A stretch of 64,000 bases of DNA. It comes from Pagrus major. Taxonomy: Eukaryota; Chordata; Actinopteri; Spariformes; Sparidae. Numbering within the stretch: position 1 is the first letter of the stretch; each line of letters begins with the position of its first letter. Under the pieces are notes generated by a model that ran no database searches, was not told the origin of the DNA, and worked only from the letters and a program-made list of their open reading frames with translations. This document shows, in pieces, positions 1,506-9,635 of the stretch. Position numbers and translations under genes: made by a program. The stretch lies in contig NC_133234.1 in NCBI RefSeq assembly GCF_040436345.1, positions 10,664,446-10,728,445 on the forward strand, read 5' to 3'.

Positions 1506-4470
1506 TGTTGATAAAAAGAATGAAAAAAAGACAACGGGGGTAAAAGAAAAGAAAATCATTAAAGAGAATGGTTAGTCAAGAATCAAAGGTCAAGCATTCT
1601 GGGAATCATTGAAGATCACAAACTGAAGTAGAGATACAATGATGAAGTTAAAAATGAAAAGCACAGCAACATAATGGCATGGATGAATCTACTTGAACAT
1701 TCAGAGTCGAGAGGAAAAGTAGAGACTGAAGGAAAACAACAAAAAATAATGAAAACACCTTAGTAACCTTAGTAATGCACATTTTTTACAGTAAGCTGTG
1801 TTGAGTGGATCTTGCACATGACTGCCATACAGGTAGTTGAACATCGTGTCCCATGTGTGGGTAGAGGTCCTTATTTTACTTTTAGACCCAGTGAATTCAT
1901 TGTTTTCAGGTATTTAACAGAAAATATTTCAGCTGCAGTTTGGTTAGGTTAAGGTAACAAAACTATCCAGTTAGATGAAAGGAAATTAAGATTTGGATTA
2001 AAATAATAACTTGCTTTTGTTTTGTTGTTGTTTTTGTTGTTTTATTGATAAGGACACCCTTGAAGTGATAGCTGGGTACCTCATACAACCCCACATCAAA
2101 AGGCCCCAACAATCACCTTGAGGTGACCGTAGGAGAATGGGGGACAGAGTTGGTGTGAGAATCCTGAGGAAAGCTGTTGTGGGAAGCAGAACTGAACCTA
2201 AAATAAATGACAGGTTTAACTACAGTCAGTACATCAAAAAAGTGAATTGCGGCTGGAATGCACCAAACTTCACAGACTGATGGAATAACAGTGCGAGATG
2301 ATTTAAGGGTTGTGTTTAATTACAGAATTCACCTCAGTTATCTGATGTGGCAATCACACTCTCGTCTCCCTGTACGCACTTTATGCTTATCTCACACAGC
2401 CACCGGGCTACTGTAGAGTTTGACAGGCAGAGCATAACACAGCCGCTGCCAAGGTTGTGGGTTTGATTACTAGCGGGACCACCTATGCTAAAAATTCATG
2501 CACTCACAGCGCAGCGAGGCAGGCTGGGTAAAAAACATCCACCAAATGGACTACGCTGTGTTAGAAGAATAAACTGCCGAGCGTTCGCCTGCCAAGACAA
2601 CAGAAAAGAGGAAATTTACTCAGCCGTGACAGCCTCAATGCAAGGTCGGGCTCCTCCACCACACTGAGGGCTGAAATTCATTTGAATACCTTTGGCAGCG
2701 TGCAGAAGTCGAGCTGGATGGATGTGGAGTGGCGCTCCAGAATATTCAAATTGTTGATGCTGAGAGTTCAACGGCATCGTACGAATGTTATGATGACCTC
2801 TCGTAATTGCACACTACAAGAAGTGATGTTTTGAAAGAAAATACGCTTCAAACTTTACTTGTCTGTGGTGAGAGCAATAAAACGGAGGACTGTGTGTCTA
2901 TTTGTGTGTGTTTTAGCGCGTGTGTGTGTGAGTACTGTATGTGAGACATCAATACATCAATGCATGTGGTAACTTAAGGTGAAGAGAGACGTGAGAGATG
3001 TGTGGTGTCCAAGAGGAGTATGGCAGACAGTGTGTTGATTGGCACACGTTTTCCTGGGATTGTGCGTGTGTGTGTGTGTGTGTACTTCCTTTGTAATGAT
3101 AGCCCTCAGTCTCTCTCCAGGCGGCCAGGCTACTCCTCTAAACCTCAGGGTGTTTGCCAGCCCCCGGAGCCCAGAGAATATGGCCTGCAGCTGGGCCACA
3201 GAGAGAGTCTGAGCCCCTGTCCGCCACTGACACAACCAATATCATAATTAATGCGAGACAACAAACACAGTCTGTGTTCATATATAAAAGGAAGCTTCTA
3301 CACGTGCAGCAGTGGGAACATGCAGGTAGTACACCACATGCATGTATCACACTTTGTTGAAATCAGAGTTTTCATTAACGGCCAAAACTGGGGAACCTGC
3401 TCCATCTGTGGAGGGGTGGATGTGACGTAGAAGGATGAGAGCTCCATCTAGAGGTCAATCTGGAGAACATCAGTTCGTCTGCTCAAAGTTCAAGACTGCC
3501 TCACATACCTCTGACAAGGCCCAACAGTCCAATTTAATCAGGTCTCGACCAGCTCGAAACATGAAACACGAAAACATGATCTGTTTTGAGTGTTAAATCT
3601 TATATTTCCCTCTGAGTTGCAGTGAAATACCTACATGTAGAAAATAAATCATGAGAGACAAAACAAAAATCTATCAAACTATAATTTATTTCTGTTATTT
3701 GTTTGTTGCTCCATATGAATACACTGACAGTAGAGGACAAATGCAAATGGTCCTTTTTTCATACTAAACTCTTGACTCAGGTGTGAGTTTTTCAAAGTAA
3801 AATGCAAATACACAAGAGGTCTGACAGCAGGGGCGCATCCAGAAATCTTTTTTATGGGACGGGGCAGAGGGGGCCACTGAAAATGGGGTGGCTGCAAAAA
3901 TGCAAGGGGGGGAGTGGGACACTGACAGATGGTCAAAACCGCCTGGCTGGCTGTTAATTTCATCTTATTTACATTCTTATGCACCTTGGGGGCGCAATTT
4001 ACACTGTCACTGATTATTTTGCATTCTTCTACAGGTAAAACATATCGGTTCAAGTAAACCGGCTTACAATAGGTGACTAACAGAAATAAAAACATAGCTG
4101 ATTCATTCAGTAGATTGACAGTGTTTTTTTTGCTATTGCATAATTGTGAAATAAGCATACAAAAGTGCAGCCTGACAAGAAATCTGGATTCTTCAGTGCA
4201 TATATCATACGTGTGTGGTTACAATTGTCTTCGGGAAGTAATAGAAAGTAAATGACGCAATATAATGTCAAATAAAACAGATAAAAAACCTGCTAAATGA
4301 TTTTTTAAAACTGTTTTGTTGCTAAAATCACATGCGTCTACTCATACTTTTCTTAAGACGATATAATACTAATAATAAATCAAAGTTAATATGTATTTAA
4401 CGATGAGGTATTCGAGGAATGTAACTTTTTTTGGAATATTTGCAGTGTGAGGTCCCGTCACCGTGTCACG
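1506..4470. other. Intergenic, no gene seen
   Basis: AT-rich spacer without recognisable protein motifs. It holds a short TG run near 3064-3081. Around 3827-3910 there is a G-rich stretch beginning CAGGGGCGCATCC, which resembles the left end of hAT-type fish elements; I found no matching right end. The 3679-4158 minus-strand frame is not protein-like. Confidence 0.5.
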
Positions 4471-4474
4471 GGCC

Positions 4475-4543
4475 GGTCAAAGATTCTTCAGCGGACAGGT
4501 CGTCCCTCTCAGGCCTTTCTCCTGTCCACGTCACCCGCTGACC
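4475..4543 (-). promoter_or_regulatory. SECIS element in the msrb1 3'UTR
   Basis: Read on the minus strand, TGAC (4533-4530) and TGAA (4490-4487) form the non-Watson-Crick quartet. Between them a 9-bp helix pairs GTGGACAGG with CCTGTCCGC, one pair being T-G. The apical loop carries AAA (minus-strand bases at 4518-4516), 11-13 bases after the quartet as in known SECIS elements, with a possible mini-stem beyond. A basal helix pairs GGTCA with TGACC. It lies about 70 bases past the msrb1 stop and is what recodes the TGA as selenocysteine. Confidence 0.9.
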
Positions 4544-4612
4544 AAACCTGTTCACTGATCCTGGACTGAGCAGCAGATTCAGCAGCTGGAGTGAAAACTC
4601 AGACCTCGCTCT

Positions 4613-6368
4613 TTATTGCTTGTCGTTGCCTGCGACGGAGACAAAAGACAAACACACTTACTGCCACTCTGCAAGCATGTGACGTCAGAAGAATGTGGAT
4701 TCACAATCAAAGCAAAACTTGAACTCTGACACTTTGTTGCTACAACCCTGGAGCAATGGAGGTGAGTGGTGTTTCATTGGTGCTTGGGGCACAAAGGATT
4801 GTAGAGAAATCACAAAACTAACATCTCTTTCTAGAAACAATGTCCTGCTTAGCTGAAAGAATTTGACGCGCTTGTTGGAGCCATTTTTCATTATTTTCTA
4901 CTTCTGGATGAAAACACGTCCCGATTAAAACTGTTCTCTGTATCCCTGGGCATGTTTTAGGGATGGGATAGTGAGATTACTGTCATGATTTGGGAAAACT
5001 AACACATCTCACCTGGCTATGCCTCACTCATGTCTGTGGTCATCTTACCTTTGCTGGGGACAAACTTGAGCGAGTGGCTGAATATTCAAAAACGCGAGAC
5101 TCCCTCTTGTGGGCCGTCATTTACAAACTCGTGGCCCAGACCGTTCCCACACTTGCCACACAGAACCTATACGCATGAAACACAATCACATCAATGATGT
5201 CCTGTGATGGTACAGATGTTTAATCTGTGAATGACACAGCAGCAGTAAAACAGAGAGGGCTCAGAAAACCCACTGATGGCAGATATGAGATCTTAAGTTG
5301 TACCTTGAAGGCTGTTAGAGTCTCCATCATCTTGGTGACGCTGTCCTCTCGGACGGTGTCGGTGAAAGCCGGCCAAGGAGATGAGTGGGGGAACTTGGAC
5401 CGGCTGGAGAACAGCGGATGGCTGCACTGGGAGCACACATACATACCTGCAGGGGACAGTTACTGTTAACAGTCTTTGCATTGTTTCACTTTAACCTGAA
5501 AAAGATGCCTGAAGATAAAGTAATACTACAGGGCAGTGGTTACCAGCATGGGTATCAGGACACACAGATAGATGCCAAGGTAAGTCTGAGGGGTCCAGCA
5601 AAGGTGTGTTTATTTATTTTTTCTTTTAGCTTTTTTTTTTTGCATTTCTTTCATTGAAATACCTGAGAGGGAGAAAAAACTTCATCTGAACAGCTAAAAA
5701 CTAAAGCTAAAACTTGTGTCAAATTGCTTAAAAGGTGCAATATGTGAGAATTTTGGTTTAAAACATTCAAAAATGAACTCAAATTGTCAGCAGAAAGTGA
5801 AGAAATAACCTTGTTGGACATTATGACGTCTGTATATAGGTGTCGCAGAAGTTAGCATGCTAACCAGCTAGCCTCGCCTGGAGCTCGGTCAAAAGCTCCA
5901 GCGCTAGCGCTCCCAGTCCGGACCGCTAGCTACACAGCTAACTGAGCTAGCTACACGGCTAACTGAGCTAGCTAGCTAAGGGCAGCTACAGTTAGCAGCA
6001 GCTACTCTGGTGATATGCCGCCCCGTATTTGTTTTGAATCAGACAGGAGGCCAATTTTCACATACTGCACCTTTAATGTTCAGGGGTCACACTCCCAAGA
6101 AAAGCTTAGAAACACTGTAATAGGGCCATTTAACTCCCATTAACTATAGCTTTGAGGCTAGTACAACTTTATTACAAAATAAAAAAAACAAAGTGAAGGT
6201 GGACTGCTCGTCATGGATGGCCCAGAACCCCGACTGCTGTCACACCACCTGCCCTTCGTCGTCGTTATGGAGGTTACATCACAACACCGCTCCCAGATCA
6301 GCAGCCTGCTCACCCAGCTTGAAATGATCCTTGTAGATCTCGCTGCCGATGAACCGACAGAAAGACAT
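4613..6368 (-). CDS. msrb1: Methionine-R-sulfoxide reductase B1 (selenoprotein R), four exons
   Basis: Reduces methionine-R-sulfoxide in proteins, in cytosol and nucleus. Coding exons on the minus strand are 6368-6314, 5446-5304, 5166-5049 and 4629-4613; phases 1, 0 and 1 join cleanly into 110 codons plus TAA (human MSRB1 has 116). The start ATG opens [19 protein letters not shown], matching the family N-terminus and carrying the resolving Cys4. Zinc-binding CxxC pairs are C23/C26 (CSQC) and C69/C72 (CGKC). Exon 2 holds the family block [20 protein letters not shown]. The catalytic residue is selenocysteine 93, encoded by TGA at 5088-5086 inside SRF-U-IFS. A SECIS hairpin follows in the 3'UTR. 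The last exon adds only five residues (GNDKQ). A naive gene caller would stop at the TGA. Identification is secure; whether this is the a or b fish paralogue cannot be told. Confidence 0.95.
5728..6076. repeat. Family A MITE-like element, copy 1 (msrb1 intron 1)
   Basis: Ends are inverted: left AAAGGTGCAATATGTGAGAA, right CACATACTGCACCTTT. The interior is rich in GCTAGC/GCTAAC words and includes GTTAGCATGCTAACCAGC. It lies within msrb1 intron 1 (5447-6313). Related copies occur at 10954, 24777, 26001, 26206, 41172, 49053, 49773 and 58096. Confidence 0.7.
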
Positions 6369-7772: not shown

Positions 7773-9635
7773 TCATTCGTACTTGCAGTAGTGCTTAAGT
7801 GCCTCTGGCAGCTCCAGCCAGTCAATGGCCATCCTGTGGACAATGTGCTTCTGGATGGCCTTCCTACACAACGTCTGCAAGGACGAGACTGAAGCAACAG
7901 AGACGGAGGCCAAAAAAGACAAAGAGGAAATGGATTAGCAGGATAAAAGTTGTCATGAGAAATTAGCAGTAAATAACTGGAAATGTATTTGAAGCATGAA
8001 TGAATTAGTGAATGGGTCCCTGGGCCAGTTAATATATCTCTTTGATGCAAAGTTAGTCAAATGACAACAAAGAGATTCAGAGTGATCACAGAGAGATGCA
8101 AACAACCACATAGAGACGCTAATGGAACGTAAAGTGATGTAGAACAACTACAAAGAGAATAAAAACAACTACAGAGACTCAAAACAACCACAAAGTGACT
8201 CAATATGACCACAAAGAGACACTAAACAACCACAAAGAGACACAAAACAACTGCAAGAGATGCAAAACAACCACAAAGAGACTCAAAACAACCACAAAGA
8301 GACTCAAAACAACCTTGGAGACTCAAAATGGCCGCAAAGACATGCAAAACAACCACAAAAAGACGCTTAACAACCACAGAGAGACACAAATCAATTGCAA
8401 AGAGATGCAAAACAACCACAAAAAGACACTAAACAACACAAAGAGACACAAAACAACCACAAAGAGACACAAAACAACTGCAAAGAGACACAAAACAACA
8501 CAACGAGACACAAAACAACCACAAAGAGACACAAAACAACTGCAAAGAGACACAAAACAACCACAAAGAGATGTAGAGCAACTACAAAGAGATGTGAAGT
8601 GACCACAATAAGACTCCAACAACCACAAAGAAGCACAAAACAACCATGCAGACACAAGGCAACCACAAAGAGATGCTAAACAACTACAAACAACATCTCT
8701 GAGTTGTTTTTGTGTCCGAGAGCTCTGGCTCACCCGCAAAATGTTGAAAGAGTCTCTGTCAGTATGCACACTGTAACATGTCTGTGCCCAGGGGCCCACT
8801 GTTTCATTATCAGTCCATGACTAAAAGTATCACTGCGACACTCACATCCATACTCCACCTGGACGATTTGGACACACTTAGTAGCAGCAAAGACGTCCAC
8901 CACAGCATAGAGAGGCTGGACGGCCGGGATCCCCTTTGCGGAAGCTCCCATGTCCTCACCATTGATGATGATGTGCATGTCAGCCAGGTCTCGCCCTTTC
9001 TGCACATACAGCACTCCTATCCGGCTGCGTCTGGCTGTGGGAGGCAGGGCGTTGGTCTTATACAAGTCATCCAAAATGTGGCTGTAGCGTCCGGGCCTGC
9101 TACGACCGACCAGCTTGTCTCTGGGGATCCGAACATTCTCAATGTACAAGTGAGAATCAGCGAAGAAAGTCTTTGGTTTACTGTTGTCGTTGCCTCCTCC
9201 TGCATCTCCGCCTCCACCTCCAGCTGCATCTTCAACGTCCCCTCGTCCGAGCCTGTGGCCCCCAGCCAGTCCTTCGTCTCCAGCCTCTGGAGCCTCTGCT
9301 ACAACATCCTCTATGACCTTGTTGTGGTTGCGAGTGATGGCAAACACCCAGCTGTCTCCTAAGTCCGTCAGGTCTGGGATGGAGTATTCAGGTACCACCT
9401 CTAAGCCCCTGGGGTCCCTGGCAGTCAGGCCAACCCGGAGGTGGCCACACCAGCCCAGCTCCTTATCCTCGATCTCTATGAGGAAAATCTCCCCCGGCTT
9501 CAGAGGTTGTTTGCTGAAGCACACTCCATTTGCAAAGCTCTCCACCCGGGTGGCCTTGGTTCCTGAGAGGTCCAGTCTGACGTTGGTACCATGGATGGGG
9601 TGGAACTCCATGAACTGGTCACAAAAGGGCTCCAT
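7773..9635 (-). CDS. neurl2: Neuralized-like protein 2 (Ozz), E3 ligase substrate adaptor, two exons
   Basis: NEURL2/Ozz is a muscle adaptor that recruits substrates such as beta-catenin to a Cullin-5/Elongin ligase. Exons are 9635-8846 and 7888-7773; donor GTGAGT and acceptor TTCAG join in phase 1 to give 301 codons (human 285). I chose the ATG at 9635-9633, which has A at -3 and G at +4; the frame extends two codons upstream only as GTG-AAA behind a TAA. The NHR domain covers about residues 11-263, with FHPIHGTNVRLDLSGTKATR, ELGWCGHLRVGLTA, DSWVFAITRNHNKV, IPRDKLVGRSRPGRYSH and DMHIIINGEDMG. An acidic, Gly-rich insert at about 109-155 splits it. The C-terminal SOCS box (about 265-301) has SLQTLCRKAIQKHIVHRMAI and ends KHYCKYE, as in mammals. 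No frameshift seen. Confidence 0.95.
8205..8690. repeat. Minisatellite in the neurl2 intron
   Basis: Tandem, diverged units built around ACAACCACAAAGAGACACAA, about 21 bases each and more than twenty copies, with variants such as CTGCAAAGAGA. It lies wholly in the single neurl2 intron (7889-8845). Because the unit is a multiple of three, it creates long but meaningless open frames on both strands. Confidence 0.9.

Follow-up and report, generated by a model that had tools for sequence, protein, structure and literature searches.

Gene structure and identity of the MSRB1 homologue

The window, meaning the whole stretch of 64,000 nucleotides that was analysed, holds on its minus strand a four-exon MSRB1 gene (6368-4613) in which every intron is bounded by GT-AG. 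The joined exons form 333 nt in frame and encode a product of 110 residues that starts with MSFCRFIG and ends at a TAA stop, and the single in-frame stop codon before this TAA is a TGA at 5088-5086. The features of the msrb1 gene are as follows:

6314..6368, minus strand: exon 1 (coding part), MSFC...KLG, donor gtgagc; mouse MsrB1 aligned from its residue 1
5304..5446, minus strand: exon 2, first zinc CxxC (C23, C26), splice sites ctgcag and gtacaa; genome MSRB1 match L009
5049..5166, minus strand: exon 3, second CxxC (C69, C72) and the predicted Sec codon, splice sites gtatag and gtaaga; genome MSRB1 match L010
5086..5088, minus strand: in-frame TGA, residue 93, probably read as selenocysteine; the same codon is TGA in both sister genes
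4613..4629, minus strand: exon 4 (coding part), TAA at its end, acceptor gtcgcag
3685..3690, minus strand: candidate poly(A) signal, the first AATAAA beyond the SECIS-like element

Exon 3 measures 118 nt and its skipping would shift the frame; the corresponding genome match contained one TGA, plus one TAG lying beyond the exon, while exon 4 had no match of its own in the genome MSRB1 search. Another AATAAA, at 4617, overlaps the msrb1 stop codon.

Analysis of the msrb1 product identified a SelR domain (1.5e-21), and its best alignment was to mouse MsrB1 (3.6e-46); the best MSRB3 reached 2.2e-15 and the MSRB2 chain 3.7e-13. The translation has two CxxC motifs and an N-terminal Cys4, which we take to be the resolving cysteine. 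The alignment to mouse MsrB1 (PDB 2kv1) extended over residues 1-106 and showed both CxxC pairs, Cys4 and SRF-x-IFS in common, whereas the msrb1 product lacks two residues ahead of the second CxxC and the mouse structure has Cys at the Sec site. A zinc role is described for the CxxC pairs of MsrB1 (PMC10298544, excerpt).

Among the neighbours of msrb1, Pfam searches identified a Neuralized-type and a p47phox-type gene, and four of the six open reading frames submitted were without a match. Inspection by eye also showed a long and imprecise repeat of TTTTGTGTCTCTTTGTGGTTG type at 8060-8720, apparently within an intron of the adjoining Neuralized-type gene.

The in-frame TGA codon

An earlier note on this DNA had placed a recoded TGA at 5088-5086 within S-R-F-U-I-F-S, at the residue where MSRB1 carries selenocysteine, with 18 codons running from the TGA through the last sense codon. 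The position proved exact and the codon count agreed, and in the alignment to mouse MsrB1 the TGA falls on the active-site residue. The residue aligned with it is Cys in 2kv1 and Ser in 3mao, the next chain, both of which we assume to be stand-ins for Sec.

The twelve bases TGA ATA TTC AGC were identical in all three MSRB1 copies of this genome (window 5077-5088, minus strand; L017:3600-3611; L017:5591-5602), although elsewhere the window copy and its sisters are largely saturated at synonymous sites, and it is possible that these bases act as a context element for recoding.

A SECIS-like hairpin downstream of msrb1

The last exon of msrb1 contains a SECIS-like hairpin whose core lies 78 nt past the stop codon and 132 nt past the UGA. 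Its parts are:

4475..4543, minus strand: SECIS-like element, whole, with lower stem 4543-4538/4480-4475
4530..4534, minus strand: 5' SECIS core GTGAC, quartet half TGAC at 4533-4530
4521..4529, minus strand: 9-bp helix, 5' arm, present in folds of 173, 91 and 57 nt
4516..4518, minus strand: apical AAA, 5' strand of the internal loop, within AGAAAG
4513-4511/4506-4504, minus strand: mini-stem above the AAA, as in the form 2 layout
4491..4499, minus strand: 9-bp helix, 3' arm, present in folds of 173, 91 and 57 nt
4487..4490, minus strand: 3' SECIS core TGAA, by sequence and grammar match

The helix formed by 4529-4521 with 4499-4491 has nine pairs, one of them G-U, and all of the parts that had been described for this hairpin (both TGAN quartet halves, the 9-bp helix and the apical AAA) were found where they had been placed. 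We take the layout to be the one named form 2. The hairpin shares with eukaryotic SECIS elements of that form the quartet, the 9-bp helix, the run of apical A and the mini-stem, and differs from them in its GTGA core and in having no Rfam match. The 3' UTR of msrb1 possesses the GA/GA quartet, the stem above it and the unpaired apical AA, which are SECIS features as described in PMC3316567 (excerpt). The same excerpt gives for mammals a reported minimum UGA-to-SECIS spacing of 207 nt and an experimental minimum of 51-111 nt; the msrb1 spacing is below the former and above the latter.

The predicted folds varied with the length submitted. The 57-nt fold had the textbook SECIS shape with the quartet left open, the 91-nt fold included the lower stem (4543-4538/4480-4475) but paired the quartet base T4533, and the 173-nt fold, the longest tested, kept the 9-bp helix while GGGTGA of the 5' core paired with upstream bases. 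The fold energy of the hairpin was not unusual at any of these lengths (z -0.23 for 173 nt, -0.96 for 91 nt and -1.51 for 57 nt), and for 12 further elements of the genome, SECIS or SECIS-like, z ran from -0.94 to -2.85. Fold z-scores alone were set aside as a SECIS test, being not discriminating.

Sequence grammar and covariance-model searches

A strict SECIS grammar was defined as an [AG]TGA, a suitably spaced AA, a [TG]GA and a helix of 8 or more pairs in which up to two G-U and one mismatch were allowed. The single match in the 128,000 strand-bases of the window (both strands) was the msrb1 hairpin, on the strand and at the place expected for a SECIS element of this gene. Thirty dinucleotide shuffles gave an expectation per window of 0.37 matches with helices of at least 8 bp and 0.10 with at least 9 bp, which scales to approximately 0.003 or 0.0007 for the 923 nt of one strand from the stop codon to the next AATAAA. 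Thirteen other loci of the genome, totalling 86,798 strand-bases, gave no match; some of them overlap, and true SECIS elements had not been removed from them. It is important to note that the grammar passed five of 13 other elements tied by position to selenoprotein genes (6/14 with that of the window), and a second SECIS element could therefore be missed.

The earlier note had looked to a covariance model for the SECIS fold, and this expectation, where the case for msrb1 is weakest, held only in part: Rfam was silent and our own models R1 and R2 were silent window-wide, while R1 with its filters off ranked the exact site first. With Rfam, no SECIS was reported in the window at the gathering score and none at E ≤10 in 901 bases, and the model likewise had no match at E ≤3 in locus L017, which contains both sister MSRB1 genes. 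Because of this second result, an Rfam match was not treated as defining a SECIS element. Across the whole genome (786 Mb in 25 contigs), RF00031 at E ≤10 gave at least eight places, at least four of them over the cut-off; of 18,245 candidates from the first pass, 150 were scored.

Model R1 was built from alignment A1, which holds 13 elements of this genome and no MSRB1, and in which element L019 is misaligned at its 3' end. Model R2 was built from alignment A6 (14 rows), with L019, L021, L025, L026 and L052 left out. MAFFT alignments A2, A3 and A5 were dropped as model input, as gaps were misplaced in deiodinase and Rdx-family elements.

In a search of 79 kb at E ≤10, R1 did not report the msrb1 site and gave two other window places at 13.1 and 11.8 bits; with filters off over 401 nt, the exact msrb1 site was the first of five matches (8.4 bits, E 0.048). 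The hairpin of sister A scored 14.0 bits (E 0.37), first of four in the 79-kb search, and that of sister B, which the covariance models do not pick out, 5.0 bits, second of four in its stretch. Among ten other loci, R1 scored five held-out elements (GPX at 24.2, 21.8 and 20.5 bits, deiodinase at 12.8 and 12.0 bits) and had no match in the other five. R2 gave 23 places window-wide at E ≤10, with the msrb1 site not among them. This says little, because R2 also missed the left-out deiodinase elements at L025 2251 and L026 2430, although it gave those in L021 and L019. We judge the silence of the covariance models on the msrb1 site to reflect an insensitive test of low power and not a refutation.

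Sister MSRB1 genes and apparent selection downstream of the TGA

The genome search gave eight MSRB1 matches, three in the window and five on contig 23, where the matches represent a tandem MSRB1 pair (sister A, L017:2529-4002; sister B, L017:5098-6054), so that the genome has at least three MSRB1 genes. Both sisters, read by hand, have four exons and a TGA at the same codon as the window copy. The window copy is identical to sister A at 75/110 residues and to sister B at 70/110, in comparison to 82/110 between the sisters, and by these identities it is the more diverged of the three MSRB1 genes here. The hairpins of both sisters fold in a SECIS-like manner, with cores that begin 119 and 108 nt past the TGA in comparison to 132 nt in the window copy. 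That of sister B passes the strict grammar; that of sister A was found by eye in the same place and fails both the strict and a relaxed grammar.

Comparison with sister A showed that 11 of 17 amino acids after the TGA are kept (pS 0.85, pN 0.28), and when the 20 differences were placed at random 20,000 times, no placement kept as many. Before the TGA, the values were pS 0.85 and pN 0.18. Against sister B, 9 of 17 amino acids after the TGA are kept (pS 0.73, pN 0.33, P 0.003), with pS 0.85 and pN 0.22 before it. The comparison of the two sisters with each other after the TGA was uninformative (seven differences, pS 0.10, pN 0.15, P 0.64). Against sister A, pS is thus saturated before as well as after the TGA and pN is not. 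Together, the comparisons with the two sisters suggest that selection acts on the protein encoded by the msrb1 frame past the TGA, which in turn supports read-through.

Further selenoprotein components and GTGA cores

The genome contains a tRNA-Sec gene, scoring 77.6 bits against a cut-off of 47; the same family also exceeded the cut-off in 5 of 14 control genomes and, with 47.2 bits, at one further place in this genome. The core of the msrb1 SECIS-like element is GTGA and not ATGA, which is the core in the tandem sister pair. For metazoan SECIS elements, AUGA is treated as the vertebrate-like pattern in an excerpt of PMC3473315, where GUGA is ascribed to sponges and some algae and GTGA is thereby the less usual core compared with ATGA. 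Despite the vertebrate pattern implied there, GTGA cores were observed in 6 of the 13 gene-linked elements besides that of the window. Two of these follow GPX genes (L006, L007) and two follow the genes of a tandem deiodinase pair (L025, L026); the remaining two, downstream of single-exon deiodinase genes (L022, L023), are weaker matches at 12.0 and 12.8 bits. The tandem deiodinase pair (G000:C11:13493961-13498993, L025-L031) has a SECIS element over the Rfam cut-off behind each gene; Pfam and exon layout suggest that this pair is DIO1 and that the single-exon genes are DIO3. No printed fish MSRB1 SECIS for comparison was found in a partial literature search covering GUGA/GTGA cores and fish MSRB1 SECIS elements.

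Discussion

We hold with high confidence that the window contains a functional teleost MSRB1 (selenoprotein R) gene whose TGA is decoded as Sec. The proposal that msrb1 is a true selenoprotein gene was upheld on the identity of the gene, the Sec position and the anatomy of the SECIS element, with post-TGA selection supporting read-through, and recoding of the UGA as selenocysteine is very probable.

A decaying or truncated MSRB1 copy, with the TGA acting as a stop and the hairpin arising by chance, might be argued from the failure of Rfam and our own covariance models to flag the hairpin window-wide, from its modest fold z-scores and from the two further MSRB1 copies that could make the window copy redundant. 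We regard decay as very improbable, as msrb1 has no second in-frame stop and intact splice sites, its protein-level conservation extends before and after the TGA although synonymous sites are largely saturated, and the TGA stands exactly at the Sec codon in all three copies. That the TGA encodes Sec but another 3' UTR element is the working SECIS, the hairpin at 4543-4475 being a look-alike with a GTGA in place of an ATGA core and low covariance scores, is scarcely credible, given that no other site in the window passes the strict grammar (one that admits 5/13 other gene-linked elements) and that the place of the hairpin matches those in the two sister genes.

Under the favoured reading of msrb1 as a selenoprotein gene, ribosomes would reach UGA 93 of the mRNA, where the SECIS element of the 3' UTR would recruit the selenocysteine machinery, which would insert Sec from tRNA-Sec in place of termination. 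Reduction of methionine-R-sulfoxide by Sec93 would follow, with a selenenylsulfide forming between Sec93 and the presumed resolving Cys4 and being reduced in turn by thioredoxin. We infer Sec insertion and methionine-R-sulfoxide reductase activity of the msrb1 product. For the MsrB1 enzyme, reduction of methionine-R-sulfoxide via a selenenylsulfide and thioredoxin is described in an excerpt of PMC10298544.

An excerpt of PMC3316567 counts MsrB1 among 21 selenoproteins shared by every vertebrate examined there and traces MsrB1b to the genome duplication of fish. The window gene shares with the teleost MsrB1a and MsrB1b of that excerpt its family, the Sec position and a duplicated state in bony fish. 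Five MsrB1 copies (MsrB1a-e) are given for Larimichthys crocea and two for other fish in an excerpt of PMC4383535; the genome studied here resembles L. crocea in having more than two copies and differs in having at least three in comparison to five. The three MSRB1 copies, unlike in SECIS core and sequence, might conceivably differ in Sec-insertion efficiency or selenium response, although we think this rather unlikely.

In summary, all three MSRB1 hairpins of this vertebrate genome go unreported by the Rfam SECIS model at the thresholds used (E ≤10 for the window copy, ≤3 for the sisters). The gene, the recoded codon and the hairpin had been placed to the base from raw sequence, a call that our analysis bears out, and for the biology of the family msrb1 would represent one more ordinary member of a known group of selenoproteins.
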